A model generated the notes under the pieces. That model ran no database searches and had not been told where the DNA came from. It worked only from the letters and a program-made list of their open reading frames with translations. This document shows positions 21,307 to 63,008 of a stretch of 64,000 bases of DNA, in pieces; within the stretch, counting starts at the first letter, position 1, and each line of letters starts with the position of its first letter. The position numbers and the translations under genes were made by a program. The stretch is from Halogranum rubrum (GTDB lineage Archaea; Halobacteriota; Halobacteria; Halobacteriales; Haloferacaceae). The DNA is taken from contig NZ_FOTC01000004.1 of assembly GCF_900114455.1 (NCBI RefSeq), forward strand, positions 89,964-153,963. The letters run 5' to 3'.

Positions 21307-21316
21307 GTAAAAATGT
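21307..21316 (-). promoter_or_regulatory. TATA element of the FAH-family gene
   Basis: On the minus strand this reads ACATTTTTAC, 28 bases before the ATG at 21284. Leaderless layout. Confidence 0.65.
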
Positions 21317-21418
21317 ACCGTCCAAAGAAGAACGAGAGAAAGAGAAGAATTCGTGTCTGTGTGGCTTACGCCTCGTCGAACAGCGCAGCACTCCGTACTG
21401 CTGGCTCGACGAGTCGTT

Positions 21419-22660: not shown

Positions 22661-22683
22661 TGCGTTCGTATATCCCGAAACCC

Positions 22684-22694
22684 GATACTAAAGC
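22684..22694 (-). promoter_or_regulatory. TATA element of the sugar-acid dehydratase gene
   Basis: On the minus strand this reads GCTTTAGTATC, about 29 bases before the ATG at 22660. Confidence 0.6.
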
Positions 22695-22815
22695 TTGCGG
22701 GTCGGTAGCGACACTACTAGCCAGAGAAGTGAGACGGGAGGAGAACTCAGACCAGACGACTGCTCGGACCAGCCCGTCGTAACGAAAGGCTAGCAGAGAG
22801 GTAGGGAACCGTAAG

Positions 22816-22824
22816 AATAGTATG
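22816..22824 (+). promoter_or_regulatory. TATA element of the semialdehyde dehydrogenase gene
   Basis: AATAGTATG about 28 bases before the ATG at 22848. It supports that start over the in-frame GTG at 22833. Confidence 0.6.
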
Positions 22825-22847
22825 TGTGAACGGTGAATAGATATCCG

Positions 22848-29416: not shown

Positions 29417-29608
29417 AATCGAGAAGAGAGAAGATACTCGGACATTCGACGTAGACGCTGGTCGAATCTTTGTACGGTATCACCGGACCCGGAGTACCGA
29501 TGGTACACCCGGTGACTGGAGGCTACCGACTTGAACGAAGTTCTGGTGAGAGAGTTCGAAACCGTCTGCAGGCATCGTGGTATGTTGGCACGCCCCAGGT
29601 ACCGAATC

Positions 29609-29616
29609 ACTTATGC
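29609..29616 (+). promoter_or_regulatory. TATA element of the GH51 gene
   Basis: ACTTATGC 30 bases before the ATG at 29643. It supports that start over two upstream in-frame candidates. Confidence 0.6.
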
Positions 29617-29642
29617 CGTCTCTGCTATCAACGCTAAGACGT

Positions 29643-33583: not shown

Positions 33584-35566
33584 ATGACAAACTCGAACGA
33601 CAGACAGTATCGAAGTTATCGACGCGAGTTCTTGAGTGGTGTTGCAGTGGGAACGGGAGCGCTCGCAACGGGCGCTGTCGGGTCCGTAACGGCAACTGGC
33701 CCCGGCAACTCCGAAGAGAACGGGTCGTCCACGCGCCAGATGGAGTCCCTCGACCGGGGAGTCGTAGCAGTTCCCGTCGATGGTGGGGTTCTCGTCCGGT
33801 GGCGGCTGTTCGGTACAGAGCCGACTGATCTGGGCTTCCACGTCTTCCGTGACGGAGACCGAGTGAACAACAAGCCGATTACCGACAGCACGAACTACCT
33901 CGATAGTGACGGAACGACAGAGTCCACGTACGCGGTCCGACCGGTCGGCGTCGGCCGAGCAGGTGGCGAAACAGGCGGTGGGCGCACCCACAGCGCCAAG
34001 CCGGGGATGTCGAAGTCCGTCGAGGTCTGGGACGAACAGTACAAAGAGATTCCACTGAACAAACCGGACGCCGTCGAAGGAGAGAACGGTGATAGGGTCA
34101 CGTACCACGCGAACGACGCGAGCGTCGCCGACCTCACAGGCGACGGGACGCTCGACATCGTCCTGAAGTGGTCGCCTTCGAACGCGAAAGACAACTCGCA
34201 GACCGGCCACACGAGCGACGTCCTCCTCGACGGGTACACGATGGAGGGGGAACAGTTATGGCGCGTCAATCTCGGACAGAACATCCGGGCTGGTGCACAC
34301 TACACGCCGTTCCAAGTGTACGACTTCGACGGCGACGGAAAGGCCGAACTCGCCGTCAGAACGTCGGACGGAACCACCGATGCGACGGGAACCGTCATCG
34401 GAGACCCGGACGCAGACTACGCCAACGAGAACGGGTACGTCCTCGAAGGGCCGGAGTATCTCACCGTCTTCGACGGAGAAACGGGTGAGGCACTGGCGAC
34501 GAAGCCGTTCGAACCAGCACGCGGTGACGTCTGCGACTGGGGAGACTGCTACGGAAATCGCGTCGACCGATTCCTCGCGGGAACGGCGTATCTCGACGGC
34601 GAGCGTCCGAGCATCGTCATGACGCGCGGCTACTACGCGAAGACGATGTTGGCGGCGTGGGACTTCCGCGACGGCGAACTCACCTCTCGCTGGATCTTCG
34701 ACAGCACGGACGGCTATCCGGAGTACGAAGGGAAGGGTGCACACAGTCTCGCGACGGCGGACGTCGACGGCGACGGAAAAGACGAAATCGTCTACGGTGG
34801 AGCGGTCATCGACCACGACGGTAGCGGACTGCACACGACGACGATGGTCAACCCCGACGCGCAACACTGTGGGGACTTCCTCCCGGACCGCGAAGGGTTG
34901 GAGATATTCGTTCCGTCGGAGTACCCGCCCGAAGGTGCGCCGAGTGCGTCGATGCGCGATGCGGCCACGGGTGAGTACATCTGGGCTGCCGACGGAGACG
35001 ACGTGGGTCGGGCGATGGTCGCCGACGTCGACCCCGCGTACAGAGGGGCCGAGGCGTGGGCGTCCGGCGGTGTCGGGACGTGGACGGCGAACGGCGAACA
35101 GATCCGCGAAGAGCCGATCAGTTCGATCAACTCCGCGGTCTGGTGGACCGGTGACCTCCATCGAGAGTTACTCGACCACGACTGGAACACAGAGCAGAAC
35201 TACGGCGTCGGAAACCTCGCGAAGTGGAACCCCGAGACCGAAACGCTCGACCGATTGAAGACGTTCGACGGGACACGCTCGAACAACTGGACGAAGGGGA
35301 ACCCCTGTCTCTCCGGCGACATCCTCGGCGATTGGCGTGAGGAAGTGCTCTGGCGTCGCGAAGACAGCGAGGCGTTGCGTCTATACGCCACGCCCTACGA
35401 GACCGACCACCGTCTGTACACGCTGCTACACAATCCGCAGTACCGGACCGGAATCGCGCGACAGAACGCGGGTTACAACCAACCACCGTGGCCGAGTTAC
35501 TTCCTCGGTCACGAGATGGAAGAGCCACCGATGCCCGACATCGAACTCGTCTCGACCGACGACTGA
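33584..35566 (+). CDS. Rhamnogalacturonan endolyase, PL11, Tat-secreted
   Basis: A 660-residue protein. YRREFLSG with Arg13-Arg14 and a hydrophobic stretch to about 38 form a Tat signal. There is no lipobox, so the enzyme is released or wall-associated. The mature part follows PL11 lyases throughout: ALDRG-type start (MESLDRGVVAV), VYDFDGDGKAE and other calcium-binding DGDG loops of the eight-bladed propeller, EPARGDVCDWGDCYGNRVDRF, GARGYY-type strand and the terminal YRTGIARQNAGYNQPPWPSY. PL11 enzymes cut the Rha-GalA backbone of rhamnogalacturonan I by beta-elimination, leaving unsaturated ends. This is the clearest extracellular enzyme of the island and names its probable substrate. Confidence 0.94.
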   Translation: MTNSNDRQYRSYRREFLSGVAVGTGALATGAVGSVTATGPGNSEENGSSTRQMESLDRGVVAVPVDGGVLVRWRLFGTEPTDLGFHVFRDGDRVNNKPITDSTNYLDSDGTTESTYAVRPVGVGRAGGETGGGRTHSAKPGMSKSVEVWDEQYKEIPLNKPDAVEGENGDRVTYHANDASVADLTGDGTLDIVLKWSPSNAKDNSQTGHTSDVLLDGYTMEGEQLWRVNLGQNIRAGAHYTPFQVYDFDGDGKAELAVRTSDGTTDATGTVIGDPDADYANENGYVLEGPEYLTVFDGETGEALATKPFEPARGDVCDWGDCYGNRVDRFLAGTAYLDGERPSIVMTRGYYAKTMLAAWDFRDGELTSRWIFDSTDGYPEYEGKGAHSLATADVDGDGKDEIVYGGAVIDHDGSGLHTTTMVNPDAQHCGDFLPDREGLEIFVPSEYPPEGAPSASMRDAATGEYIWAADGDDVGRAMVADVDPAYRGAEAWASGGVGTWTANGEQIREEPISSINSAVWWTGDLHRELLDHDWNTEQNYGVGNLAKWNPETETLDRLKTFDGTRSNNWTKGNPCLSGDILGDWREEVLWRREDSEALRLYATPYETDHRLYTLLHNPQYRTGIARQNAGYNQPPWPSYFLGHEMEEPPMPDIELVSTDD

Positions 35567-35714: not shown

Positions 35715-35721
35715 CTTTATG
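35715..35721 (+). promoter_or_regulatory. TATA element of the sulfatase gene at 35746
   Basis: CTTTATG 28 bases before the ATG at 35746. An alternative upstream ATG (35719) lies inside this element, so it cannot be the real start. Confidence 0.7.
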
Positions 35722-35745
35722 CTCTCGGTATACGAAGCGGGGACG

Positions 35746-39110: not shown

Positions 39111-39278
39111 ATGGCTTTACCTTCCCGCTATTTTCACCGTAGTCTCGTAGTCGTACCGCTTCGGTCCGGCCGACAGCCGACGGAACTCGACGACGAGTCG
39201 TCTCTGACCTCGGAGCTGTACGACCGGTGGTCCGAGAACAGGGAGAAGCTTTGTGTGCCCGCTGAGAGAGATGCGTGT

Positions 39279-42146
39279 ATGATTAGCAACACTCCCGTCT
39301 CTGACGGAGTGCAACTCGTCTCAGACGGCGTTACAGCGGACGTATACGTCGACGAGAGCGACGCCGACGTCGTGAACATCGCCGCCGAAGATTTCCGAGC
39401 GGACGTCGAGCGAGTCACAGACTATCGACCCGAACTCGTCACCACACTCGACGACCTCTCGTCTATCGCCGTTATCGTCGGAACGGTCAGAAGCGCCGAG
39501 GGCATCCATCGCTGTCTGGACGACTGTGACGGCGTCGACGTCGAGGCGTTAGCCGACGAACGAGAGAGTTTCGTCATTCAGACGGTCGAGGACCCGCTTC
39601 CGAACGTTCGTTCTGCCGTCCTGATTCTCGGGAGCGACCGACGCGGAACCGCGTTCGGCGTCTACGAACTGTCGAAGCAGGTCGGTGTCTCGCCGTGGTA
39701 CTGGTGGGCGGACGTCGCTCCCGACAGTCAGGAGACGGTCGTCGTCGAACCCGGTACGTATCGCTACGGCCCGCCATCGGTCGCGTACCGTGGAGTCTTC
39801 CTCAACGACGAGGACTGGGGCCTCCGACCGTGGGCGTCCGAGACGTTTGCGCCGGAAGAGGCCGCCGAGCGACCCGGACTCGGGCCGACGACCTACGCCA
39901 AGATTTTCGAACTCCTGCTCCGACTCAAGGCGAACACGGTTTGGCCCGCGATGCATCCGGGGACGAAGGCGTTCTACCGCTACCCCGAGAACGCCGACAT
40001 CGCCGACCAGTACGCTATCGTCGTCGGGACCTCACACTGTGAGCCGATGCACCGGAACAACGTCGACGAGTGGGAGGAGTCGTTCGGCGAGTGGAACTAC
40101 GCGACCAACCGCGGCCGCGTGCTGGAGTACTGGCGCACACGGGTCGAGTCGGTCTCGGCGTACGAGAACGTCTTCACGCTCGGGATGCGCGGCATCCACG
40201 ACTCGGGGATGCCGGGCGGCGACACGGAACCGGAGACCCGCGAGTTACTTCAGGCGGTCCTCGACGACCAGCGACAGCTGTTGGCGACGACGCACGACCG
40301 CCCAGTCGAAGCGATTCCACAGGTGTTCTGCCCGTACAAGGAGGTCCTCGACCTCTATCGGAGCGGGCTCGACGTCCCCGACGACGTCTGTCTGATGTGG
40401 CCAGACGATAGCCACGGCTATCTCCGTGAGCTCCCGACCGAAACAGAGCGGGCGCGAGCCGGCGGGTCGGGTGTCTACTACCACCTCTCCTACTGGGGCC
40501 GTCCACACGACTACCTCTGGCTGTCGAGCGTCCCGCTCGGCGTCGTCTCGACGGAGATGCAGAAGGCGTACGACGCCGGGGCGCGGGAGTGCTGGGTGGT
40601 GAACGTCGGCGACATCAAGCCGACCGAGAAGGAACTGGAGTTCTTCCTCGACCTCGCGTGGGACGTCGACCTCGGTGGTCACGAGTCACCAACCGCGTGG
40701 CTGTCCGACTGGGCGGCCCGTGAGTTCGGCGACGCCCACGCCGGCGAGGTTGCCGACATCCTGTCCGAGTACTACCGACTTTCGCTCGCCCGTAAACCCG
40801 AGCACATGGGTTGGTCGAGAGTGTATCCCGACACACAGCCCGGCGACCCCGAGTTCAGCTTCACCCACGCGGGCGACGAGGCTCACCGTCGACTGCGGGC
40901 GTTCGCCGACCTTGCCGAGCGGGCGGAAGCAGTCTACGATGCACTCCCGGCGGCACGACAGCCGAGTTTCTACCAGTTGGTGCTGTACCAACTGCGGTGC
41001 AGCGCCGCGATGTCCGAGAAGTATCTCCACGCGGCGCGAAGCCGCTTCTACGCCGACCACGGGCGTGTGAGTGCGAACCGATACGCCGACGCCGCGTTGG
41101 ATGCGCACGACCGAATCCGAGCGGAGACCGACCACTACAACGAGACGCTGCTCGACGGTAAGTGGGACGGGATGATGTGCGCCTCACCGCGGGACCTCCC
41201 CGTCTTCGACCCACCCGAGGTGGACCGGGTCACACCGAACGAAGGTTCGGCACTCGGCGTCGCCGTCGAAGGACGTCGCCACCCACTCGACGGTGGCGCA
41301 GAGCCCGATGGAGTCCACGGGAAGTTGCCGACGTTCCACGCCGACGTCGAGCGTACGCACTTCGTCGACCTGTTCAACCGCGGTGACACACCGTTCGGAT
41401 GGGCGGCGGCGACGAGTCACGACTGGATCGACCTCGGCGACGAGACGGGGACCGTCGCCGACGAACGTCGCCTCCGGATCAGCGTCGACTGGGAGGCGAT
41501 GCTCGAAACTCGGGAGAAGGGGACGATAACGGTCACTGGCGCGGGTGCGACGTATCGAATCGGCGTCGAGGCAAGCCGATCGACACACGACTCCGAGCGA
41601 GACGTAGCCGCAGACTTCGTCGAGGTGGACGGCGTCGTCGCCATCGAAGCCGAACACGCCAGTCGGACGACGACGGGGTCGCCCGGGCGGTGGGTGTCCT
41701 GTGACGCTCCCGGTCGGCTCTCGGGGGCGACCGTGTGCACCGAGCCGACGCGCTTTCCGAGTCACGACTCACGCGCCACCGCTCCGTGTCTCGAATACGA
41801 CGTCGCACTCGACTCGTACGGGACGGCGACCGTCGACGTGCAGTGTCTCCCCACACAGGCGCTGAACGACCATCGAGACCTCCGGTACGCCGTCGCGTTC
41901 GACGACGGTCCTCGAACTGTCGTCTCTGTCGACCCGGAGGGCGACGAACACCACCCGGAGTGGCAAGCGAACGTGTTGCGCGGCGCTGCAATCGGCACGT
42001 CCGAACACGACGTCGACGCCGCCGAAGCACACACGCTCCGGCTGTGGGCGCTCGACCCCGGACTCGTCGTCGACCGAGTCGTCGTCTACACCGACGCCGA
42101 GCGAGCGACGTACCTCGGTCCGCGCGAGACGGCCATCGACGACTGA
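39279..42146 (+). CDS. Xylan alpha-1,2-glucuronidase, GH115
   Basis: A 955-residue enzyme, the normal GH115 length. An N-terminal alpha/beta domain (SAVLILGSDRRGTAFGVYEL), then the TIM-barrel segment with WADVAP, YRGVFLNDEDWGLRPWA, LLLRLKANTVWPAMHPG and GMRGIHDSGMPGG, which are GH115 hallmarks, then helical and C-terminal beta-sandwich domains. GH115 enzymes release (4-O-methyl-)glucuronic acid from internal or terminal xylose of glucuronoxylan; arabinogalactan-active members also occur. No signal peptide, so it acts on imported oligomers. ATG 39279 is chosen because the open frame upstream overlaps the divergent transporter's promoter region. Mannonate dehydratase follows by 82 bases. Confidence 0.92.
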   Translation: MISNTPVSDGVQLVSDGVTADVYVDESDADVVNIAAEDFRADVERVTDYRPELVTTLDDLSSIAVIVGTVRSAEGIHRCLDDCDGVDVEALADERESFVIQTVEDPLPNVRSAVLILGSDRRGTAFGVYELSKQVGVSPWYWWADVAPDSQETVVVEPGTYRYGPPSVAYRGVFLNDEDWGLRPWASETFAPEEAAERPGLGPTTYAKIFELLLRLKANTVWPAMHPGTKAFYRYPENADIADQYAIVVGTSHCEPMHRNNVDEWEESFGEWNYATNRGRVLEYWRTRVESVSAYENVFTLGMRGIHDSGMPGGDTEPETRELLQAVLDDQRQLLATTHDRPVEAIPQVFCPYKEVLDLYRSGLDVPDDVCLMWPDDSHGYLRELPTETERARAGGSGVYYHLSYWGRPHDYLWLSSVPLGVVSTEMQKAYDAGARECWVVNVGDIKPTEKELEFFLDLAWDVDLGGHESPTAWLSDWAAREFGDAHAGEVADILSEYYRLSLARKPEHMGWSRVYPDTQPGDPEFSFTHAGDEAHRRLRAFADLAERAEAVYDALPAARQPSFYQLVLYQLRCSAAMSEKYLHAARSRFYADHGRVSANRYADAALDAHDRIRAETDHYNETLLDGKWDGMMCASPRDLPVFDPPEVDRVTPNEGSALGVAVEGRRHPLDGGAEPDGVHGKLPTFHADVERTHFVDLFNRGDTPFGWAAATSHDWIDLGDETGTVADERRLRISVDWEAMLETREKGTITVTGAGATYRIGVEASRSTHDSERDVAADFVEVDGVVAIEAEHASRTTTGSPGRWVSCDAPGRLSGATVCTEPTRFPSHDSRATAPCLEYDVALDSYGTATVDVQCLPTQALNDHRDLRYAVAFDDGPRTVVSVDPEGDEHHPEWQANVLRGAAIGTSEHDVDAAEAHTLRLWALDPGLVVDRVVVYTDAERATYLGPRETAIDD

Positions 42147-44566: not shown

Positions 44567-46396
44567 TCACAGAGCATCTGTCCGACAGTTCAACAGTGTC
44601 TCACCGTCGGACGTCTCGGCTACGACGCCGTCGTCGACCCGTTCGAACGTCGGCCTTCCTCGCCAGACCGTCTCACTGTCGGGACTGGCGACGACTGCCG
44701 AAGCGAGCCAGTGTTCGCCCGGTTCGTGCGTCGCCCGCAGCGTCGGGACGACCGTTCGGGGACGAGTGAAGTTGGTGTTCGGATTCTGGGTGACGACGAC
44801 AGGTGTCCGGTCGCCGAACCCGTCGGTAATCTCGCTCACGCCGTTCGGATAGCGAGCGAGTGCTGTCCCACTCTGACAGACGTGTGTGACGTTCGAGTCG
44901 TCGTCGTCACCGGTCTTGTCCGATGCGAACCCGCCTTCTTCGCTGTGGACGAGGCGGTCCGTCTGCAGTCGGTGGACGCGCACGTGCCACGGGAGATTCG
45001 GGGCGAGCCACGTCTCGACGCTCACGCCGTCCCACGGGTCCCAGCGAGACCGGAGGGTCGTGCCGTCCATCGCCGTTCTCGTCGCTGAGGCGGGAATCGT
45101 GTACTGGTCGCCGTCGAGGCTAAGCGCGAGGGCGCTGTCGTGACCCGCCTGTCCCACTCCGGACGTTCGGTCGGCCACGGAGAAGCCGAACTGCGTCGAG
45201 TAGGCGAACTTCGTGTACTTCTCGCGTCCGTGGACGCTGGCCTGTGGGAGCGAGAGCGCGAAGTGGTGGTCGTCGCCTCGGCAGATGACTTTCTTCGCTT
45301 CGGGTTGTGCCGTCGTGTCCGGCAGACTCGGGAGTGGCTCCTCGTCGGCCCGCCAGAACGGATGGTCTCGGTCCAGCGCGAGGGGGAGGAACGCTTTCAT
45401 GGCCCAGTACGGCGAGTTCGGTGAGTTGTACGGCTCGGAGAGTTTCAACGACGGATATCGGTACCCGACCGACAGCAACCCGCCGTCGGTGAATATCGGT
45501 TGGTCTAGCCACCAGCGGACGTTCCGCGCCCAGAGTCCGCGAACGACACCCCACGGGAGCGCTTCGACGTCAGCAAACGCCAGCCCGCCCCAGAACGACG
45601 CCTGTGCGAAGCGGTAGGTCAGACTCCGTCCGTACGGAAGCGCCCGTCCGTCCTCGTCGAACCAGTGAACGTGCGCAGTCGCAAACGTTTCCGCTCTCGC
45701 CCGGAGTCGGTTCGCTCGTTCAGGGTCCTCGTCGCCGGCGACCGTCGCATAGATGAGTCCGTAGAGATGCATCGCCCACGGAAGGTAGTAGTCGACCGGG
45801 CTCTTCGCCTCCTCCGGGCCGTCTGCGTACCACCCGTCGCCGAGAGAGAACGTTTCGAGTCGGTCGAGCGTGGACTGGGTGAGTTCCCAGTCGTGACGCG
45901 CCCCCACCGACCGGAGTCCTACGTTCACCATCACCCGGAAGAACAGCCAGTTGCTGTCGTGGAGTTCGGCGTCGTTGATCTGGTTCAACCACGTGACCAG
46001 TCGTGCCCGTTCGTCCTCCGAGAGCGGGTCCCAGAGGTGCTCCGGCGTGAGCGCGAGGCCGACGCCGATAGCGGCCATCTCGACGTGCTTCTGTGAGTAG
46101 TCGTCCGCACTACCCCAGTACTCCTCGTGGGACGGGTCCGTCCCGTTGACGAGTCCGGTCCGAAACAGCGACCACTGGTCGAATTCGCCGTGAACGCCTA
46201 ACGGAACCAGACCCCACAGCGGCCGTGCGAACCCCTCCAGTTCGGCCGCGACGTCCGGGAACTGAGCCCCGGTCGCCGTCGGTCTCACTCGCGCCCTGCC
46301 AGGGCTGACGTGCGTAAGCAGCGGTTCGACGAGTTGGCGCACTGCCCGTTCGAAGTCACGTCGCGTCTGGAGCGGATTCTCTCTCGCTGGATTCAT
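44567..46396 (-). CDS. DUF2264 family protein, probable glycosidase for uronate-containing glycans
   Basis: A 609-residue protein. The first 350 residues form an (alpha/alpha) barrel typical of DUF2264 (FARPLWGLVPL, DQWSLFRTGL, HDSNWLFFRVMVNVGLRSVG, DGWYADGP); the rest is beta-rich (DHHFALSLPQASVHGREK). My recollection is that DUF2264 proteins overlap CAZy family GH154, whose studied members remove beta-glucuronic acid, but this is not verified here. No signal peptide. The neighbouring esterases and GH115/UxuA genes support a role on uronate-decorated oligosaccharides. It could replace the missing unsaturated uronyl hydrolase. Confidence 0.82.
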   Translation of the reverse strand: MNPARENPLQTRRDFERAVRQLVEPLLTHVSPGRARVRPTATGAQFPDVAAELEGFARPLWGLVPLGVHGEFDQWSLFRTGLVNGTDPSHEEYWGSADDYSQKHVEMAAIGVGLALTPEHLWDPLSEDERARLVTWLNQINDAELHDSNWLFFRVMVNVGLRSVGARHDWELTQSTLDRLETFSLGDGWYADGPEEAKSPVDYYLPWAMHLYGLIYATVAGDEDPERANRLRARAETFATAHVHWFDEDGRALPYGRSLTYRFAQASFWGGLAFADVEALPWGVVRGLWARNVRWWLDQPIFTDGGLLSVGYRYPSLKLSEPYNSPNSPYWAMKAFLPLALDRDHPFWRADEEPLPSLPDTTAQPEAKKVICRGDDHHFALSLPQASVHGREKYTKFAYSTQFGFSVADRTSGVGQAGHDSALALSLDGDQYTIPASATRTAMDGTTLRSRWDPWDGVSVETWLAPNLPWHVRVHRLQTDRLVHSEEGGFASDKTGDDDDSNVTHVCQSGTALARYPNGVSEITDGFGDRTPVVVTQNPNTNFTRPRTVVPTLRATHEPGEHWLASAVVASPDSETVWRGRPTFERVDDGVVAETSDGETLLNCRTDAL

Positions 46397-47559: not shown

Positions 47560-48552
47560 ATGGAGTACGACGACGTCTCGTTTCACAACGTCGGAGAGTT
47601 ACGGCCCGTCGACGGTAGCGACGGACGAAAGCTGCAGCGCGTCCCCGAGTCCGTTCGACAGTCGCTGAACGAGAAGGCACAGGACGTCATGTACCGACCG
47701 GCCGGAGCGGAGATACGATTCGTTCCTACCGACGGGTCGGTCGACGTGACGCTCTCGTCGCCCGACGGAACCTGCGAGGTGGTCCCATTTTGGGGACCGT
47801 TCATGAGTTCCGATCACCGTCACCTCGGGACGGAGCCGGAGACGTTCACGTTCGAGGTTCCGGACCGAGTGACCCACCTCAACCCCGACGACTTCGCGTT
47901 CGCACCGGGTGTCTGTCGACTCGCGCTCTGGGGCGGGTCGGTGGTCGTCCACGACGTCGAAGGCGCTCGCCGTCCACCGACCGAGGCCGAACTCCCCGAC
48001 CGGCAGTATCTGGCGTACGGGACGTCCATCACCTTCGGGAGCAACGCGACCGGGGTCAACCTCTCGTACCCGTGGCGACTCGGGGAGTCGCTCGGTGCCG
48101 ACGTACTCAACCTCGGCTGTCCGGGGTCGGCTTTCTGTGAGCCGGAACTGGCAGACTACGCCGCGAGTCTCGACTACGACGTGGCGACGCTCGCGCTCTC
48201 GGTGAACATGATAGCCGTCGGGTTCTCCACAGAGACCTTTCGAGAACGGGCGCGCTACTTCGTCGAGACTGTCGCCGAGGGAAATCCGGACGCCCCCGTC
48301 GCCGCCATCACGCTGTTTCCCTTCTTCGCCGACGTCGTCGACGACCCCGAGGCCGACGAGATGGTATCGACCCCGACGGCGTACCGGGAGGCACTCCGCG
48401 AGATAGCCGCCGAGGCACCGTCGAACGTCGCCGCGGTGGACGGACCCGACCTCCTCGGCGTCGAGGGACTGACGACGGACCTCGTCCACCCGTCGGACCG
48501 CGGGATGGGGCAGATTGCGGCGGGGTTGGCCCGCCACTTCGGCGTCGAGTGA
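47560..48552 (+). CDS. SGNH/GDSL-type hydrolase, probable carbohydrate acetyl esterase
   Basis: A 330-residue two-domain esterase. Residues 1-140 are a beta-sandwich; 150-330 are an SGNH hydrolase with nucleophile Ser156 in YGTSIT, Asn in LSVNM and the Asp307/His310 pair in DLVHPSD. The jelly-roll plus SGNH order is that of carbohydrate esterases (CE2/CE20-like) and of rhamnogalacturonan acetylesterase relatives. No secretion signal, so it acts on imported oligosaccharides. It lies in a run of plus-strand genes with the HSL esterase before and the COG3618 hydrolase after, each with its own promoter. Confidence 0.85.
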   Translation: MEYDDVSFHNVGELRPVDGSDGRKLQRVPESVRQSLNEKAQDVMYRPAGAEIRFVPTDGSVDVTLSSPDGTCEVVPFWGPFMSSDHRHLGTEPETFTFEVPDRVTHLNPDDFAFAPGVCRLALWGGSVVVHDVEGARRPPTEAELPDRQYLAYGTSITFGSNATGVNLSYPWRLGESLGADVLNLGCPGSAFCEPELADYAASLDYDVATLALSVNMIAVGFSTETFRERARYFVETVAEGNPDAPVAAITLFPFFADVVDDPEADEMVSTPTAYREALREIAAEAPSNVAAVDGPDLLGVEGLTTDLVHPSDRGMGQIAAGLARHFGVE

Positions 48553-52234: not shown

Positions 52235-55123
52235 ATGACAGAGCACACCAAGACCGTCTCGGAAGCGTCGCGCTCGCTGGCGGGTGAGTGGCGGTTCTCG
52301 CTGGATGCCGACGACGTGGGCCTCGACGAACGGTGGTTCACCTCGGCGTTGGGCGACACGATACGCTTGCCCGGGACGACAGACGAAGCGAAGAAGGGCG
52401 AACCGAAGTCGACACGCGAACCGAACCACCTCACACGAACTCACCCGTACGAGGGTCCCGCGTGGTATCAGCGACGAGTGACGGTTCCCGAGCGATGGGC
52501 CGGGAGGCGACTCACGCTGACGCTCGAACGAACCCGGTCGACGCGAGTCTGGGTCGACGACACCGAAGTCGGCCGCTGTGACTCGCTCTCGACGCCACAG
52601 GAGTACGACCTCACCGACGCGCTCGAACCCGGTGAGCGGTTGCTGACGATTCGCGTCGACAACGACTCGTCGGTCCTGTCGTTACCGGGCGTCCAGCGGT
52701 CGCATATGGCGACGGAACACACGCAGACGAACTGGAACGGTATCGTCGGCGACATCCGACTAGCGGCGACGCCGCTCGTGTGGGTCGAAGACGTGCGTGT
52801 GACGCCAGACACTACCGGTGTCGCACAGGTCGACGTCACGCTCGGAAACCGAACCGACGAGGCAGTCGACGGCCGTCTCTCGCTCGCCATCGCCGACAAG
52901 TTCGACAGAGAGAATGCACCGACAGACTCGGACGAACCGGGTGAATTACTCGAAACGAGTACGGCGGTGACCGTCGAGGCGATGTCGACCGAGACACCCG
53001 AATCCGCGGCGTCAACCACAGTCTCGCTGACGTGTGACCTCGGCGACGACCCGGCCCGCTGGGACGAGTTCGCACCCGTGTCGTACAGCCTGTCGGTTCG
53101 ACTGGAGGCGACGCTGCCTGCCAGCGACGGCGAATCGCGAGTGACGCACTCGAAGACGACGCCGTTCGGTGTCTGTGATTTCGACACCGAGGCGACGAAG
53201 TTCGTCGTCAACGACCGGACGACGTTCCTGCGCGGCAACGTCGACTGCTGTATCTTCCCGGAGACGGGCTACGCGCCCACGACTCGGGCGGCCTGGCGTG
53301 ACGTGTTCGAGACGGCGCGCGAGTACGGTCTCAACCACTACCGCTTCCACAGTTGGTGCCCGCCGGCGGCCGCCTTCGAGGCTGCCGACGAACTCGGCGT
53401 CTACCTCCAACCCGAACTACCCTTCTGGAACAGTGAGACGGCTCTCGAAGACGAGGAGTCGCGCGCGTTCTACCGCGCCGAGGCCGAGCGCATCCTCGAC
53501 GCGTACGGCAACCATCCCTCGTTCGTCATGTTCGCACTCGGGAACGAGTTGTGTGGGAGCCACGAGGCGATGGTCGGACTCGTCGACCACTGCCGTGAGT
53601 ACGACGGCCGGCCGCTGTACGCGATTGGCGCGTACAACTTCCTCAGCGAGTCGACGGTGACGGAGACGGACGACTACTGGATCACCGCGTCGGCACCGTC
53701 GGTCCGAGACGACGCCGACAGCGAACGGCGACTCGTCCGTGCGGCCGAACTCGACGAGCGGTCGCCGTCGACGACCCGAGACTACGACGACGTCGTCGAC
53801 GATATCCCGATTCCCGTCGTCTCACACGAGATCGGACAGTACCAGTTCTATCCCGACTTCACCGAACTGCCGAAGTACACCGGCGTGCTCCGTGCCCGCA
53901 ACCTCGAACTCGTCCGCGACCACTTGGAAGCACACGGGATGCTCGACCGTGCGGCCGAGTTCGCGCACGCTTCGGGGCGACTCGCGCTTCGGTGTTACCG
54001 CGAGGACGTCGAGGCGACGCTCAGAACGAAGCAACTCGGGGGGTTCCAACTGCTCGCGCTCCAAGACTTCCCCGGCCAGGGGACCGCACTCGTCGGCATC
54101 CTCGACTCGTTCATGGACTCGAAAGGTGTCGTCACGCCCGAGACGTGGCGGAACTTCTGTGGGCCGACCGTCCCGCTCGCACGGATGGACGCACGGACCT
54201 GGGAGACAGACGAGATGTTCGTCGCGACACTCCAACTCGCACACTACGGACCGTCGGCGCTCACGGGTATCGACACCCGCTGGTCGCTCCGTACTGCAGA
54301 CGGTGAGACTGTCGCCTCGGGGACGGTCGTCCCGACGGACGTCCCGCAGGGGACACTGACCGACCTCGGACGAGTCGAAGTCGACTGCGGCGGCGTCGAC
54401 GCTCCGGAGTCACTCTCGTTCGAGATGTCGGTGACGTGTGCCGAGTGTGACCTCGACGTTCAAAACCAGTACGACGTGTGGGTCTACCCGGAGGACGCAT
54501 CGGAACCTGTCGTCTCGGAACCGAACACCGACGAGCCAACTGCCGACGAGTCGAGCGTGGGAGGGCCGAGCGACGGCGGAGACGGAGTCGTCGTCAGCCG
54601 AGCGTTCGACGACGCGACACGGGCGCTGTTGGCGGAGGGAGAGAGCGTCCTCCTCGTCCCGGAACACGACGACCTTCGGTACGCCGTCGACGGGACGTTC
54701 CAGCCGGACTTCTGGTCGTACGCCCTGTTCAAGCGGCGAGCACCGCCGGGAACGATGGGGCCGACCTTCGACGCGACACACCCACTGTTCGCCTCGTTCC
54801 CGACCGATGACCACGGCGACTGGCAGTGGTGGCATCTCCTGAAGCACTCTCGGCCAATCGTCCTCGACGACGCACCCGACGAGTACGACCCGCTCGTCCA
54901 GATGGTCGACAACATCGAGCGCAATCAGAAGCTCGGACTCGTCTTCGAGACGGCCGTCGGCGACGGCAACCTCCTCGTCTGTGCTATCGACCTCTTCGAC
55001 TGTGGAGACGAAGCATCTGCCCGGCAGTTCTACGACGCGTTGACGAGTTACGCGGCGTCGCCGGCGTTCGACCCGGACGACACCGTGCCCGAAGCGGTGT
55101 TGACGAAGCTCCTCACCTCGTAG
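52235..55123 (+). CDS. Glycoside hydrolase family 2 (beta-galactosidase / beta-glucuronidase / related)
   Basis: A 962-residue GH2 enzyme. An N-terminal jelly-roll sugar-binding domain (YEGPAWYQRRVTVPERW; TRVWVDDTEVGRCDS), an immunoglobulin-like domain, and a TIM barrel with acid/base Glu438 in ALGNELCGSHE and the nucleophile Glu532 in SHEIGQYQFYPD. An acidic spacer (about 760-790, rich in Asp, Glu and Ser) leads to a C-terminal domain ending near the stop. No signal peptide. GH2 specificity (galactose, glucuronate, galacturonate, arabinose) cannot be told from motifs; pectic galactan or uronide side chains are plausible. A TATA-like CTTATC lies about 33 bases upstream. Confidence 0.9.
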   Translation: MTEHTKTVSEASRSLAGEWRFSLDADDVGLDERWFTSALGDTIRLPGTTDEAKKGEPKSTREPNHLTRTHPYEGPAWYQRRVTVPERWAGRRLTLTLERTRSTRVWVDDTEVGRCDSLSTPQEYDLTDALEPGERLLTIRVDNDSSVLSLPGVQRSHMATEHTQTNWNGIVGDIRLAATPLVWVEDVRVTPDTTGVAQVDVTLGNRTDEAVDGRLSLAIADKFDRENAPTDSDEPGELLETSTAVTVEAMSTETPESAASTTVSLTCDLGDDPARWDEFAPVSYSLSVRLEATLPASDGESRVTHSKTTPFGVCDFDTEATKFVVNDRTTFLRGNVDCCIFPETGYAPTTRAAWRDVFETAREYGLNHYRFHSWCPPAAAFEAADELGVYLQPELPFWNSETALEDEESRAFYRAEAERILDAYGNHPSFVMFALGNELCGSHEAMVGLVDHCREYDGRPLYAIGAYNFLSESTVTETDDYWITASAPSVRDDADSERRLVRAAELDERSPSTTRDYDDVVDDIPIPVVSHEIGQYQFYPDFTELPKYTGVLRARNLELVRDHLEAHGMLDRAAEFAHASGRLALRCYREDVEATLRTKQLGGFQLLALQDFPGQGTALVGILDSFMDSKGVVTPETWRNFCGPTVPLARMDARTWETDEMFVATLQLAHYGPSALTGIDTRWSLRTADGETVASGTVVPTDVPQGTLTDLGRVEVDCGGVDAPESLSFEMSVTCAECDLDVQNQYDVWVYPEDASEPVVSEPNTDEPTADESSVGGPSDGGDGVVVSRAFDDATRALLAEGESVLLVPEHDDLRYAVDGTFQPDFWSYALFKRRAPPGTMGPTFDATHPLFASFPTDDHGDWQWWHLLKHSRPIVLDDAPDEYDPLVQMVDNIERNQKLGLVFETAVGDGNLLVCAIDLFDCGDEASARQFYDALTSYAASPAFDPDDTVPEAVLTKLLTS

Positions 55124-55271: not shown

Positions 55272-56243
55272 ATGACGGTCAGACTCGCGTTTATCGGTGC
55301 CGGCGGTATCGCTTCGACTCACCTCGACCATCTCGAATCACACGATGGGGCAGACGTCGTCGCAATCTGTGACATCGACGAAGACGTCGCGGCGGCCGCC
55401 GCCGAACCACACGGCGCGTCAGTGTTCACCGACCACCACAGCATGTACGAAGCGGGCGGCTTCGACGCCGTCGTCGTCGGAATTCCGCCGTTCGCACACG
55501 AAGACCAAGAGCGCCTCGCGGCCGAACACGGCGTCGACCTCTTCGTCGAGAAACCGCTCGCACTCGACAGCGAGACGGTTCGCGAAAACGCAGAGGCGAT
55601 AGCGGAAGCCGAAATCCTCACGCAGGTAGGCCACATGACGCGGTACGCCGACTCCGTCCAACGGGCGAAGAGCCTCATCGGCGACCGGACGGTCGCACTC
55701 GTCGACGGCCACTGGTGGTGTGGCATCCCCGGAAACCCGGACCACTGGTGGCGACGGAAGGAGCTCTCGGGAGGACAGGTCGTCGAGCAGGCGACACACA
55801 CGTACGACGTCGTTCGATACTTTGCCGGCGACGTCGAGTCGCTGTCGGCGGTCGGTGGCCACGAAGTCAACGCCGACGAACTCGACTTCGAGGACTCCAC
55901 GTCGGCGTCGATGCGACACGAGACGGGCGCTATCAGTCACGTCTCGGCCACGTCGACCTCGGCGCGGTTCGGTCACGGGTTCCGCCTGTCGGGCGACGGG
56001 TTCTCACTCGAACTCGACATCGGCGAGGACACGCTCGTCGGAACGGTCGACGGCGAACCGGTGGACTTCGAAGGCGACGGTGAGATGTACGGCCCCGAGA
56101 TGGACGCCTTCGTCGACGCAGTCGAGACGCGAGACGCCTCGTTGCTCGAATCACCCTACGACGACGCACGAAAGACGTTCGAGACGACGCTCGCAGTCGA
56201 GGAATCGCTCGCGACGGACGAGCGGCAGGTGATGACGGAGTGA
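55272..56243 (+). CDS. Gfo/Idh/MocA family oxidoreductase, paired with an isomerase
   Basis: A 323-residue oxidoreductase. Rossmann start RLAFIGAGGIASTHLDHL, then LFVEKPLALDSE and a substrate domain with SGGQVVEQATHTYDVVRYF. The stop overlaps the start of the next gene by four bases, so the two products are made together. The pair, an oxidoreductase and a TIM-barrel isomerase, recalls systems that oxidise a sugar at C3 or C5 and then isomerise or eliminate. The donor could be an inositol, a keto-glycoside or a free sugar. Confidence 0.88.
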   Translation: MTVRLAFIGAGGIASTHLDHLESHDGADVVAICDIDEDVAAAAAEPHGASVFTDHHSMYEAGGFDAVVVGIPPFAHEDQERLAAEHGVDLFVEKPLALDSETVRENAEAIAEAEILTQVGHMTRYADSVQRAKSLIGDRTVALVDGHWWCGIPGNPDHWWRRKELSGGQVVEQATHTYDVVRYFAGDVESLSAVGGHEVNADELDFEDSTSASMRHETGAISHVSATSTSARFGHGFRLSGDGFSLELDIGEDTLVGTVDGEPVDFEGDGEMYGPEMDAFVDAVETRDASLLESPYDDARKTFETTLAVEESLATDERQVMTE

Positions 56244-57028
56244 ACTTCACCATCAGCGCGAACACGAACATGGTGTTCGGTGTCGACGACCCCGTCGACG
56301 CCGTCGCGACGGCCGCGGACCTCGGTCTCGACGCCATCGAGTTTTGGGGTATCGACGGCGTCGACACCGAGGCGCTCCGCGAGCGATGTGCCGAACACGA
56401 CGTCGCCGTCTCGGCCTCGACCTGTCTGGGTGTCGCAGCCAACACGCAGGGCGAGGGCCCCGGTATCACCGACCCCTCGCTCCACGACGAGGCCGTCGAC
56501 GACATCGAACGCTCGCTCGAACTGGGGCGAGAAGTCGGCGTCGACGCCCTCGTCGTGACGGTCGGTCCCGAACAGGACGACCTTCCTCCCGGTACGGAAC
56601 ACCGAGCCATCGTCAACGTCCTCCGCGACGCCGCACCGGCCGCAGAGGAGGCGGGTATCGACCTCGTCGTCGAACCGCTCAACCATCCGGTCGACCACGG
56701 CGGCTACTATCTGGACTCGTCGTACGAGGCGTACGAAATAGTCGACGCAGTCGACAGCCCAGCAGTCTCGGTGCTCTTCGACATCTACCACCAACAGATC
56801 ACCGAGGGGAACGTCATCCAGAACCTCACCGAACACGTCGAGTTCGTCGGCTACGTCCACGTCGCGGACGTCCCCGGCCGTCACGAACCCGGTACCGGCG
56901 AACTCAACTACGAACGTATCTTCGAGGCGCTCGACGACGCCGGCTACGACGGCTACGTCGGATTAGAGTACGCCCCGGTCGACGACGCCGCCGAGACAGT
57001 CGAACACGTCTACGATATCGCGCCGTAG
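56240..57028 (+). CDS. Hydroxypyruvate isomerase (Hyi) family / sugar isomerase-epimerase
   Basis: A 262-residue TIM-barrel of the xylose-isomerase-like superfamily. VEPLNHPVDHGGYYL, LFDIYHQQITEGN, HVADVPGRHEPGTGELNY and GLEYAP carry the metal-binding Glu, Asp, Gln/His and Glu of Hyi and OtnI-type isomerases. The start is GTG at 56240, inside the previous stop (GTGA), so translation is coupled. Known members interconvert hydroxypyruvate and tartronate semialdehyde or 2-oxo-tetronates, others epimerise keto-sugars. The substrate is probably the product of the coupled oxidoreductase. Confidence 0.87.
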   Translation: MNFTISANTNMVFGVDDPVDAVATAADLGLDAIEFWGIDGVDTEALRERCAEHDVAVSASTCLGVAANTQGEGPGITDPSLHDEAVDDIERSLELGREVGVDALVVTVGPEQDDLPPGTEHRAIVNVLRDAAPAAEEAGIDLVVEPLNHPVDHGGYYLDSSYEAYEIVDAVDSPAVSVLFDIYHQQITEGNVIQNLTEHVEFVGYVHVADVPGRHEPGTGELNYERIFEALDDAGYDGYVGLEYAPVDDAAETVEHVYDIAP

Positions 57029-57202: not shown

Positions 57203-58654
57203 ATGCATCAACTCCAGCGGCGCGAGCACGCTGGCTCGGACACCGCGACGGGCGACGTCAAAATCGGGTACGTCGGCGGCGGAAGTCAGGGCTGGGCGCA
57301 CACACTCATCAACGACCTCGCACAGTGTGAGGACGTCTCGGGGACGGTCGCACTCTACGACGTCGACCACGAGGCGGCGGCGAAGAACGCCGAACTCGGC
57401 AATCGGGTCGTCGAGCAGGAAGGCGCGTCGGGCGAGTGGACGTTCGAGGCACACCGGAGCCTCGAGGAGGCGCTCGACGGCGCAGAGTTCGTCATCTGTT
57501 CGATTCAAGACCCGCCCGACGAGACGTTCGTCCACGACATCGACGTCCCCGCGACGTACGGCATCTATCAGACCGTCGCCGACACCGTCGGCCCCGGCGG
57601 CGTGTTTCGATCACTTCGTGCTATCCCGCAGTACCGACGAATCGCGGCGACGGTCCGAGCGCACTGTCCGGACGCTTGGGTCATCAACTACACCAACCCG
57701 ATGACCGTCTGCACGCGGGCGCTCTACGAGGAGTATCCCGACATCAACGCCATCGGCCTCTGTCACGAAGTCTTCGGGACCCAACGCCTGCTCGCCGAAC
57801 TGGCCGAGAAGTACGTCGCGGAGGCGAACGATGTCTCGGCCGAGGATATCGACGTGAACGTCAAAGGCGTCAACCACTTCACGTGGGTCGACGAGGCGTA
57901 CTGGCAGGGACACGACGTCTTCCAGTACCTCGACGAGGAACTCGCCGCGCGGAAACCGCTCCCCGGCAACGACCCCGGCGACTTCGACGGCGAGTCCTAC
58001 TGGATAAACAACCACCAAGTCGCCTTCGACCTCTACGACACGTTCGGCCTCCTCGGCGCGGCGGGCGACCGTCATCTCGCGGAGTTCGTCCCGTGGTATC
58101 TCGATATCGACGAACCGAGCGAGATTCAACGCTGGGGGATTCGACTTACGCCGAGTTCGGCCCGTGTCGACGACGGCGACGGTCCGGCGAAAATGGAGCG
58201 CTACCTGAGCGGCGACGAGACGTTCGAGTTCAAGGAGTCCGGCGAGGAGGCAGTCGACATCGTCCGCGCGCTTCTCGGTCTCGAACCCCTCAAGACGCAC
58301 GTCAACTACCCCAACGTCGGGCAGACGCCCGACCTGACGGACGGCGCAGTCGTCGAGACGAACGCACTCATCACGGGTGACCGAGTCGCACCGGTGACCG
58401 CCGGGACGTTGCCACCGGAGGTTCGGTCGATGGTTCAGACGCACGTCACCAACCAAGAGACGCTCGTGGCGGCTGGCTTCGCGGGCGACCTGGACCTCGC
58501 GTTTCGGGCGTTCTGCAACGACGCGCTCGTGACCGTCCAACCGGACGAGGCGAAGGCGCTGTTCGCCGAACTCGTCGCCCTCGAACGCGACTACCTGACC
58601 GACTACGACCTCGACGATGCGGCCGTCCTCGACGCCGTCGCCCTCGACGACTGA
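57203..58654 (+). CDS. GH4 glycosidase, probable alpha-galacturonidase (CHEV motif)
   Basis: A 483-residue NAD- and metal-dependent GH4 enzyme. NAD-binding GYVGGGSQGW at 22-31, TNP at 164-166, the metal-site tetrapeptide CHEV at 187-190, and NHFTW (224-228) with the second metal His. GH4 enzymes cleave by oxidation at C3, elimination and re-addition. CHEV in place of CHGH, CHSV or CNVP has been described as specific to alpha-galacturonidases. That fits a rhamnogalacturonan island, since it would free galacturonic acid from short GalA-Rha oligomers after PL11. Cytoplasmic, own TATA element. A role on other alpha-uronides remains possible. Confidence 0.9.
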   Translation: MHQLQRREHAGSDTATGDVKIGYVGGGSQGWAHTLINDLAQCEDVSGTVALYDVDHEAAAKNAELGNRVVEQEGASGEWTFEAHRSLEEALDGAEFVICSIQDPPDETFVHDIDVPATYGIYQTVADTVGPGGVFRSLRAIPQYRRIAATVRAHCPDAWVINYTNPMTVCTRALYEEYPDINAIGLCHEVFGTQRLLAELAEKYVAEANDVSAEDIDVNVKGVNHFTWVDEAYWQGHDVFQYLDEELAARKPLPGNDPGDFDGESYWINNHQVAFDLYDTFGLLGAAGDRHLAEFVPWYLDIDEPSEIQRWGIRLTPSSARVDDGDGPAKMERYLSGDETFEFKESGEEAVDIVRALLGLEPLKTHVNYPNVGQTPDLTDGAVVETNALITGDRVAPVTAGTLPPEVRSMVQTHVTNQETLVAAGFAGDLDLAFRAFCNDALVTVQPDEAKALFAELVALERDYLTDYDLDDAAVLDAVALDD

Positions 58655-60121: not shown

Positions 60122-61042
60122 ATGGCCACCACGAAAACGAATGGCATGGTACGAATCGAGCGGGTCGCCGACGTCCACGCCGAGACAGGCGAAGGGGCGC
60201 TCTGGCATCCGACCGAGCGACGACTCTACTGGCTCGACATTCCCCGCGGACGGCTCTACCGATACGACCCGGAGACGGACACGAACGAAGTCGCACACGA
60301 GACGGCGGACGGGTCGGCCGTCGGCGGGTTCACCGTGGAGACGGACGGTGCGCTACTCCTCTTCGGTGCCGGCGGCCGCATCCAGCGTTGGGACCCGGCT
60401 ACCGGCGAGGTGAGCACAGTACTGGAGGGAATCGCCGCCGAGTCCGAGAGCCGGTTCAACGACGTCATCGCCGCCCCCGACGGGAGCGTCTTCTGTGGGA
60501 CGATGCCGTCCGAAGACCGCCTCGGGTCGCTCTACCGACTCGGCACGGACGGGTCGATACAGACCGTCGTCGACGACGTCGACATCGCCAACGGGATGGG
60601 GTTCTCGCCCGACGAACGGACGTTCTACTTCACCGAGTCGAACGCACGCCGTATCTACGCGTTCGACTACGACACGGCGAGCGGCGAACTCTCGTCTCGT
60701 CGGACGGCCGTCGAGACACCCGTAGACGAGGGCGTACCCGACGGGATGACCGTCGACGAAGCGGGTGCACTCTGGTCTGCCCGCTGGGGCGGCGGCGTCG
60801 CCGTCCGATACGACCCGAGCGGCGAAGTTCTCGATAGCGTCGACTTCCCCGCGCGGAAAGTCTCCTGCGTCACGTTCGGCGGCCCGGAGTACGACGACCT
60901 CTACGTGACGACCGCACTCGGAGATGGACGTCGGGCGACCGAAGGCGACGGTGCGGGGGCGCTCTTTCGAGTGCCGGGAGTCACGCCGGGCGGCACCCCG
61001 CCGTCGCTATCTGCCGTCGCCTCCCGCGACGAAGCCCGGTGA
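60122..61042 (+). CDS. SMP-30/gluconolactonase/LRE family lactonase
   Basis: A 306-residue six-bladed propeller. ETGEGALWHPTERRLYWLDIP near the N-terminus holds the metal Glu, and SRFNDVIAAPDG, NGMGFSPDERTFYFTES and VPDGMTVDEAGALWSARWGG hold the Asn and Asp ligands, as in regucalcin and sugar lactonases. Haloarchaeal members open xylono- or arabinonolactone. Here it probably hydrolyses the lactone made by the Gfo6-like xylose dehydrogenase or a related enzyme. ATG 60122 is used; an in-frame ATG at 60146 (MVRIERVADV) is nearly as likely. Confidence 0.88.
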   Translation: MATTKTNGMVRIERVADVHAETGEGALWHPTERRLYWLDIPRGRLYRYDPETDTNEVAHETADGSAVGGFTVETDGALLLFGAGGRIQRWDPATGEVSTVLEGIAAESESRFNDVIAAPDGSVFCGTMPSEDRLGSLYRLGTDGSIQTVVDDVDIANGMGFSPDERTFYFTESNARRIYAFDYDTASGELSSRRTAVETPVDEGVPDGMTVDEAGALWSARWGGGVAVRYDPSGEVLDSVDFPARKVSCVTFGGPEYDDLYVTTALGDGRRATEGDGAGALFRVPGVTPGGTPPSLSAVASRDEAR

Positions 61043-61184: not shown

Positions 61185-63008
61185 ATGACACGTGGCAACA
61201 GACAGGTCACTCGCCGCCAGTTGCTCGGAGCCGGCGGCGGAGCGCTCGCCGCCGGACTGGCCGGATGTGCGGGTGGACAGACAAATAGCGGGTCGAACCA
61301 GAGTGAGAGTGCGGGGTCGGGGGGGTCGGGTTCCGGACAGGCGTTGACCATCATGGACGCCCGGCAGTTGACGAAGATTCACTTCAACCCCTTTAACGCG
61401 GCCAACTTCGCGAACTCGTGGAACGTCATGACGCACGACATCGTCGCGGCGGGACACTCCGACGGCGCCGTTCGGACGGACCTCGCAGAGGAGTTGACGA
61501 CGGACGGCAAGACGCTGACCATCTCGTTCCCCGAGGACCGAAAGTGGTGGAGCGGCGATGACCTCACCGCCGAGGACTTCTTCATGGAACTCGAAATCAC
61601 TCGGCTACAGGACCCGGAGAGTTCTGCGTACGAGTCCCACGAACTGGTAGACGACTACACCATCGAGCGGACGTTCAAAACTGAGACGACGCCCGAACTG
61701 ATGCGAGCGAGCGTCGCCGGATTCGTCGTCGACACCCCGCGGTGGATCTTCCGAGACTACTACGAACGGTACCAGGAGGCGAGTACACAGGACGAACGCG
61801 ACGCTGTCACCGAAGAACTCCTCGGGATGACCATCTCGGCCCAGCAACTCGTCGACGAAGGACTCGGCAACTCCCTCTATCGACTCACGCGGTTCAACTC
61901 CTCGGAGGGAGTCCTCGAAAAGTTCGAGGACCACCCGCACGCAGACCGGACAGACGTCACGGAGACGCGGGTCATCCCGTGGGAAGCCGCCGACCCCGAG
62001 TCGTTCATCGTTCAGGACAAAATCGACTTGGCCTTCGGTGACTACATCACCGAGTCCAAGCGGGACCGGTACCCGGACAACCTCGAGAATCAGTACGAGT
62101 TGGAGTGGTTCCGGACGCAGAAATTCACGTTCAACTACAAGAACGAACATCTCGCGAAGCGGAACGTCCGACGAGCGGTCGCCTGCGCGGTGGACCTCAA
62201 CTCCATCGTCGCGGCCGCGAACCAAGCCGGCATCGTCGGGACGCCGACGCAGGTGCAGACGGGTCTCCGGTCGTCGATTCACGACCGGTATCTCGGCGAC
62301 GGGTTCACCGACAAACTCATCCAGTATCCGGTCGGCAAAGACCTCGAACGGGCGACGCAGTACATGGAACAGGCCGGGTACTCGAAGTCGAACGGGCAGT
62401 GGGTCGACGACAGCGGGTCGTCGTTCTCGTTCACCATCATCGCCGACTCGAAGAACGCACAGACGCAGGCGACGAAGGTGTTCTCCGACCAGTTGAACGC
62501 CTTCGGTATCGGCACCGAAGTACAGTCTATCGGGCTGGACTACTACACGAAACTGCAGGAGTACGAGTTCGACATCGCGTGGATTTGGCATGTCGCGAAG
62601 GCGCTGTGGCATCCGACGGCGTACTACTCGAACAACTTCTACGGTGTCGAAGTCGGCGACCCCGCCAGCGACGACGACACCGGACCGACCGGCATCCCCT
62701 TCGAGACGACGATTCCGAACCAAGTCGGTGCAGAGAAGACGTCCGGCAGCGGCCAGACGATTCAGCCGGCACAGTTGATGACCGACCTCCCGGTCGCTTC
62801 CTCCACCGACGAAGTGACGGAGATGACCCAGACGCTCGTCCAGTGGTTCAACTACGACCTTCCGGCACTCGTCTACGTCCAAGAGAACAGCGGGTACTGG
62901 GGCGATACGGCCAACTTCTCGTTCGAGATGCCCGAAGACGAGACGCTGATGTCGCGGACGAAGCCCGGCCGCGTCGCGTGGCTTCACGGCTGGGTCAGCA
63001 GCAAGTAA
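61185..63008 (+). CDS. ABC transporter substrate-binding protein, family 5, Tat lipoprotein (second copy)
   Basis: A 607-residue binding protein. Arg10-Arg11 in QVTRRQLLG, a hydrophobic stretch and lipobox LAGC (25-28) show Tat export and lipid anchoring; a Ser/Gly linker follows. The body has family-5 features (FNPFNAANFANSW; ELTTDGKTLTISFPEDRKWW; a CAVDLNSIV helix; WHPTAYYSN). It is only distantly similar to the one at 3588. No permease or ATPase genes accompany it in the window. The next gene is a UspA. At the end of a carbohydrate island, its cargo is more likely an oligosaccharide than a peptide, as with cellobiose-type family-5 proteins in other prokaryotes; that is inference. Confidence 0.92.
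   Translation: MTRGNRQVTRRQLLGAGGGALAAGLAGCAGGQTNSGSNQSESAGSGGSGSGQALTIMDARQLTKIHFNPFNAANFANSWNVMTHDIVAAGHSDGAVRTDLAEELTTDGKTLTISFPEDRKWWSGDDLTAEDFFMELEITRLQDPESSAYESHELVDDYTIERTFKTETTPELMRASVAGFVVDTPRWIFRDYYERYQEASTQDERDAVTEELLGMTISAQQLVDEGLGNSLYRLTRFNSSEGVLEKFEDHPHADRTDVTETRVIPWEAADPESFIVQDKIDLAFGDYITESKRDRYPDNLENQYELEWFRTQKFTFNYKNEHLAKRNVRRAVACAVDLNSIVAAANQAGIVGTPTQVQTGLRSSIHDRYLGDGFTDKLIQYPVGKDLERATQYMEQAGYSKSNGQWVDDSGSSFSFTIIADSKNAQTQATKVFSDQLNAFGIGTEVQSIGLDYYTKLQEYEFDIAWIWHVAKALWHPTAYYSNNFYGVEVGDPASDDDTGPTGIPFETTIPNQVGAEKTSGSGQTIQPAQLMTDLPVASSTDEVTEMTQTLVQWFNYDLPALVYVQENSGYWGDTANFSFEMPEDETLMSRTKPGRVAWLHGWVSSK

Follow-up and report, generated by a model that had tools for sequence, protein, structure and literature searches.

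A GH4 enzyme of the CHEV lineage in a pectinolytic island of Halogranum rubrum: a predicted cytoplasmic alpha-galacturonidase

The 64,000-nucleotide stretch of the Halogranum rubrum genome analyzed here (the window) encodes a 483-aa protein of glycoside hydrolase family 4 (GH4) that is likely to be a cytoplasmic alpha-galacturonidase of the CHEV (LplD-like) lineage. A sequence-only reading of the same DNA had predicted this activity from the CHEV motif and a PL11 gene in the same island, and the prediction is now supported by the placement of the protein in the CHEV lineage and by the pectinolytic neighborhoods of the gene and its close relatives. The assignment follows from the combination of motif, gene context, and residues shared with LplD of Bacillus subtilis. 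Family, predicted fold, lineage, motif, and locus content were observed directly, while the cofactors and chemical steps are those known for the family and galacturonate as the substrate is suggested by the context. A literature search found no published haloarchaeal CHEV enzyme.

Domain structure and solved relatives of the GH4 protein

The intact open reading frame (Table 1) matches both GH4 domains in Pfam, Glyco_hydro_4 (PF02056, 177 bits) and Glyco_hydro_4C (PF11975, 142 bits), against gathering scores of 23 to 24, and the predicted fold includes the Rossmann NAD-binding domain. Its start codon is supported by the M-[HY]-x-L N terminus that recurs among lineage A relatives (see below). 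The protein has no export signal and is strongly acidic (pI 4.27, with 87 Asp and Glu versus 31 Lys and Arg residues), as expected in a high-salt cytoplasm.

The best solved relative is LplD (PDB entry 3FEF; 392 bits over residues 18 to 458), which is deposited as an alpha-galacturonidase. It is the sole strong one, the next being a 6-phospho-beta-glucosidase at 99 bits. An AlphaFold2 model built from 49 sequences (mean pLDDT of 93.2) likewise retrieved 3fef as the top Foldseek match (E value of 1.3e-45; TM-score of 0.92 by target), with all other GH4 structures at ∼1e-22 or weaker and GH4 proteins throughout matches 1 to 49. The two proteins share 45 to 47% identity over nearly the whole length, the CHEV and AGDRH motifs, the fold, and a pectin-related setting. 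In contrast to LplD, the window protein belongs to a haloarchaeal sister lineage, is strongly acidic, and has a gene that shares its island with those for PL11, GH78, and a Gfo-TIM pair; its importer is of the SBP_bac_5 type, whereas the one beside LplD in Bacillus is of the SBP_bac_1 type. The GH4 alpha-glucuronidase TM0752 of Thermotoga maritima (1VJT, 6KCX) has the same fold and also acts on a uronic acid but scores only 62 bits, with 19 to 20% identity in the structural alignment.

Table 1. Features of the GH4 gene, its island, and CHEV-type genes at other loci
Feature	Coordinates	Strand	Basis or remark
GH4 CHEV-lineage enzyme, predicted alpha-galacturonidase	57203..58654	+	Pfam, LplD relative, tree, model, Foldseek
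GGGS, residues 25-28, presumably the NAD-binding loop that follows strand 1 of the Rossmann fold	57275..57286	+	Role as known for the GH4 family
CHEV, residues 187-190, metal-site tetrapeptide	57761..57772	+	Present in all CHEV-lineage rows
N224-H225 (in NHFTW), presumably the second metal/substrate-site motif of GH4	57872..57877	+	Invariant in both alignments; role from family knowledge
A287-G-D-R-H291, candidate uronate-binding site	58061..58075	+	CHEV rows have D289 and R290 fixed, CHSV rows have other residues; role inferred
Sulfatase	11358-13775	-	In pectin island
FAH-family protein, MR/MLE dehydratase, 2,5-dioxovalerate dehydrogenase	20400-24296		Near GH51
GH51 arabinofuranosidase	29577-31136		Island member
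PL11 rhamnogalacturonan lyase	33584..35566	+	PF21348, 765 bits; twin-arginine-like signal (YRREFLSG)
Sulfatase	35719-37182	+	Adjoins PL11
GH115	39111..42146	+	PF15979; without export signal
DUF2264/GH154	44567-46396		Island member
GDSL hydrolase, possible pectin/RG acetylesterase	47560..48552	+	Pfam
GH2, resembles exo-beta-1,4-galactosidase BT4151	52235..55123	+	770 bits, below cut-off of 1500
Gfo/Idh/MocA oxidoreductase	55272..56243	+	Pfam; 4-base overlap with next gene
Xylose-isomerase-like TIM barrel (hydroxypyruvate/2-oxo-tetronate isomerase-like)	56240..57028	+	Pfam, NCBIfam, PDB relatives 1k77 and 6wn6
PL11-like protein, 466 aa	58690-60090	-	RGL11_C, 42 bits
SMP-30/gluconolactonase-like protein	60122..61042	+	PF08450, 253 bits
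SBP_bac_5 lipoprotein, likely oligosaccharide binding (inferred)	61185..63008	+	Pfam; N terminus with twin-arginine/lipobox-like signal
Lineage B CHEV GH4, example	L082:9205-10719	+	Glucuronoxylan locus (among loci L079-L092)
Lineage B CHEV GH4, example	L085:8905-10356	-	Glucuronoxylan locus (among loci L079-L092)
Nitratireductor thuwali plasmid CHEV GH4	L181:7974-9368	+	PGAP: alpha-galactosidase

Phylogeny and the CHEV motif

Haloarchaeal relatives collected in a survey of 391 genomes fall into bands of identity to the window protein: lineage A at 65 to 77%, A2 at 57 to 60%, B at 44 to 52%, and clade C at ∼30%. In the maximum-likelihood tree, rows with CHEV are separated from those with CHSV by a branch with 100/100 support, and the CHEV clade is monophyletic, with the window protein inside it. 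Bacterial LplD (98/95), lineage A (100/99), and lineage B (100/100) each form one group. The haloarchaeal CHEV groups are sister to bacterial LplD rather than nested within it, so that the characterized bacterial group does not include the window protein, and the node uniting all haloarchaeal rows is weak (65/51). This sister position lowers confidence in a direct transfer of the LplD substrate and leaves the CHEV-class placement unaffected. The sequence-only reading had named phylogeny within GH4 as a check on its prediction, with placement outside the LplD-like clade as a refuting outcome; the tree does not show such a placement.

The CHEV tetrapeptide, which that reading located at residues 187 to 190, is found at exactly those residues and aligns with C169-H170-E171-V172 of LplD. 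The CHEV class of GH4 alpha-galacturonidases was reportedly described by Thompson et al. (FEBS Lett 587:799, 2013). In the haloarchaeal GH4 set, CHEV is present in every A, A2, and B protein examined, while every clade C protein has CHSV or CHSI, which shows that the tetrapeptide did not arise by chance. About two dozen positions are fixed or nearly fixed across the 57 CHEV-lineage rows and different in the CHSV rows, including W31, W79, E189 of the motif itself, D289, R290, R321, Q374, T386, and N387; among these, D289, R290, and R321 are candidate binders of the uronate carboxylate. A further set of residues, M167, D276, Y299, and L442, is common to lineage A and LplD but is replaced in lineage B by V, E, F, and Q, respectively.

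A role for the window protein as a common GH4 enzyme of the MelA type, acting as alpha-galactosidase or alpha-glucosidase, is scarcely credible in light of these data. Its top NCBIfam model is indeed an alpha-galactosidase (NF011657), and PGAP gives that name to a CHEV relative encoded on a Nitratireductor plasmid. However, the score of 278 bits is far below the model cut-off of 486, and MelA-type CHSV enzymes, which share the GH4 fold and (for the window protein, judging by its family) redox-elimination chemistry, are only ∼30% identical to it and lie on the opposite side of the 100% branch. In addition, the same genome encodes a separate enzyme with the CHSV motif, its only other GH4 protein (at C6:363830). 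The MelA-type function was therefore rejected on the basis of motif, tree, and model score. The Nitratireductor thuwali plasmid protein itself, a long-branch CHEV GH4 encoded in a pectin/uronate locus with kduI, uxaC, and GH88, is probably misannotated as alpha-galactosidase.

The pectinolytic island of the window

The PL11 gene that the sequence-only reading had placed in the same island is full length and lies ∼22 kb upstream of the GH4 gene. Just beyond the window end (locus L096) are genes for a GH78 rhamnosidase, a PL22-type oligogalacturonate lyase, a complete SBP_bac_5/ABC importer, and an L-rhamnonate dehydratase-like protein. The Gfo/Idh/MocA and TIM-barrel genes form a pair directly upstream of the GH4 gene, and the Gfo-TIM-GH4 order is repeated in Halopiger xanaduensis and at loci L062, L063, and L065, in several other genera. 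The PDB relatives of the TIM-barrel protein include 6wn6, a 3-keto-glucoside 4-epimerase; no PDB relative of the Gfo protein was found at an E value of 1e-20.

Several other genes of the island deserve mention in their own right. The PL11-like protein encoded next to, and convergently with, the GH4 gene is devoid of the N-terminal beta-sheet domain, has no visible export signal and no PDB relative at 0.01, and finds only weak relatives in three surveyed genomes (G359, G121, and G345); it possibly represents a new intracellular PL11-related family. Two sulfatases are also encoded in the island, the second of them adjoining PL11. The genes near GH51, including a 2,5-dioxovalerate dehydrogenase that scores above its cut-off, look like the haloarchaeal oxidative pentose route. 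Their initial interpretation as rhamnose genes was dropped, since that dehydrogenase fits the pentose route and the L-rhamnonate dehydratase-like gene is downstream of the window.

Genomic neighborhoods of lineage A

Close relatives of the window gene are found in similar company. In Halopiger xanaduensis, a gene for a rhamnogalacturonan lyase comes after Gfo-TIM-GH4, and GH28, PL22, RhcD, and GH115 are nearby, and in Halomontanus rarus the lineage A gene is surrounded by those for a rhamnosidase, a GDSL hydrolase, GH115, PL22, and GH28; GH115 thus accompanies GH4 in both organisms as well as in the window. Across 20 lineage A loci, the neighbors included relatives of rhamnonate dehydratase (12 loci), GH78 and GDSL hydrolases (8 each), PL11 (7), and PL22 (5), and Pfam counts of lineage A neighbors agree with this tally. 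Lineage A is present in 14 of the 18 genomes (among 391) with a strong PL11 match versus 1.5 expected (Fisher test, 7e-14) and, by genus, in 9 of the 11 PL11 genera versus 2.0 expected (1e-6), although these genomes are related to each other and the p-values overstate their independence. PL11 is encoded within 10 kb of 9 of the 37 lineage A genes and none of the 35 lineage B genes. Counting against the galacturonidase reading, PL11 is missing from 18 of the 32 lineage A genomes; with PL11 absent from more than half of them, homogalacturonan fragments may be the more general substrate.

Five genomes (G057, G379, G357, G181, and G192) carry two lineage A copies each, ∼70% alike and at separate loci, which points to possible substrate specialization. 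In three others (loci L075, L076, and L078 of G264, G228, and G271, respectively), A2- and B-type CHEV genes neighbor each other on opposite strands of a stretch of ∼4 kb.

Lineage B and the specificity of the motif

The neighborhoods of lineage B are of a different kind. Its 92 neighboring proteins include UxuA (9), UxaC (7), GH10 (6), GH3 (5), GH11 (4), and GH67 (3, confirmed at loci L087 and L091), and one of them scores above the cut-off for Gfo6 xylose dehydrogenase. The glucuronate isomerase UxaC is encoded within 10 kb of 22 of the 35 lineage B genes versus 0 of 37 in lineage A (Fisher test, 8e-10). UxaC can serve galacturonate too, while UxuA belongs to the glucuronate branch. Because of UxuA, and because the xylanases point to glucuronoxylan, the lineage B proteins, publicly annotated simply as glycoside hydrolase family 4, are probably alpha-glucuronidases. 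They differ from the window protein in these loci, in overall identity, and at positions 167, 276, 299, and 442, but share with it the CHEV motif and the other lineage-wide fixed residues.

It follows that CHEV alone is insufficient for functional assignment. The sequence-only reading had regarded the tetrapeptide as characteristic of alpha-galacturonidases; the motif of the LplD class is there, but its occurrence in glucuronoxylan loci deprives it of specificity, so that it is no proof of a galacturonidase and is weaker evidence than that reading implied. On balance, we lean toward regarding CHEV as a uronidase motif, with the haloarchaeal enzymes split into a pectin lineage A acting on galacturonate and a glucuronoxylan lineage B acting on glucuronate, set apart by the few substitutions at positions 167, 276, 299, and 442, which would switch sugar recognition, e.g., of the C4 hydroxyl.

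If CHEV marks uronic acids generally, the window protein could itself be an alpha-glucuronidase that removes glucuronate from, e.g., the GlcA side groups of pectin-associated glycans. This appears unlikely. Besides the example of lineage B, such a role would be in line with the presence in the island of GH115 and DUF2264/GH154, from both of which glucuronidases are known. Against it stand the absence of glucuronate isomerase genes near any lineage A gene, the retention by lineage A of LplD residues where lineage B differs, and the pectic character of lineage A neighborhoods. Moreover, a whole-genome search of Halogranum rubrum detected no UxaC. Nor did it detect an altronate/galactarate (GD_AH_C) dehydratase or GH88/105, despite PL11, PL22, and GH4. 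Catabolism through uronate isomerase or through altronate/galactarate dehydratase was thus looked for and not found, and these absences also count against the galacturonidase reading.

Proposed role in pectin utilization

As an alpha-galacturonidase, the window protein would act at the end of a short chain of events. Exported PL11 and its partner enzymes would cut pectin, mainly rhamnogalacturonan I, to oligosaccharides that the ABC importer would carry into the cell. There, GH4 would take off non-reducing alpha-linked galacturonate in an NAD- and divalent-metal-dependent reaction, alternating with the GH78 rhamnosidase; the natural link cut could be GalA-1,4-GalA or GalA-1,2-Rha. In GH4 enzymes, Mn is bound at the Cys-His site, and a galacturonate residue retains the C3 hydroxyl and C2 hydrogen that the family requires. 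The reaction is predicted to begin with oxidation at C3 and abstraction of the C2 proton, after which the leaving group at C1 is eliminated, water is added, and the product is re-reduced.

The C3 hydroxyl and C2 hydrogen are also kept by the 4,5-unsaturated galacturonate end left by PL11, and since GH4 needs nothing else, the enzyme might act mainly on this residue, standing in for the missing GH88/GH105. Indeed, GH88/105 was not detected in this genome, and strong matches are lacking in 8 of the 18 PL11 genomes. Nevertheless, lineage A and GH88/105 occur together in 21 haloarchaeal genomes versus 3.4 expected, the opposite of what replacement predicts, and the GH154 protein is another candidate for the task. 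Because of this positive association, replacement of GH105 was rejected as the main role, and we consider this reading very improbable.

For the alpha-galacturonidase reading, the chemistry is that of the family, in which bound NAD oxidizes C3, the leaving group departs by beta-elimination, water is added, and bound NADH reduces the product; elsewhere, the same four reactions (oxidation, elimination, hydration, and reduction) are divided among separate enzymes of the Gfo and TIM families (PMC10628242). The Gfo and TIM neighbors of GH4 may process 3-keto or glycal products that leak from it, or galacturonate itself. The Gfo, SMP-30, and GH154 genes are no more than candidates for dealing with galacturonate or the unsaturated end. 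As regards growth, related haloarchaea that carry genes of this kind were not grown on pectin (PMC9726719), which counts against the galacturonidase reading; one natronoarchaeon was obtained from rhamnogalacturonan plates (PMC12343721).

Implications

The window protein adds an archaeal member to an enzyme class that was already known; what is new is that haloarchaeal CHEV enzymes divide into two lineages with different gene contexts. A predicted cytoplasmic galacturonidase whose gene accompanies those for PL11, rhamnosidase, and rhamnonate dehydratase in many genera makes the use of rhamnogalacturonan by these organisms likelier and marks rhamnogalacturonan I oligosaccharides as a candidate substrate. 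Naming CHEV proteins as galacturonidases from the motif alone would mislabel lineage B. Taken together, lineages A and B offer a natural pair for finding the basis of galacturonate versus glucuronate specificity in GH4.
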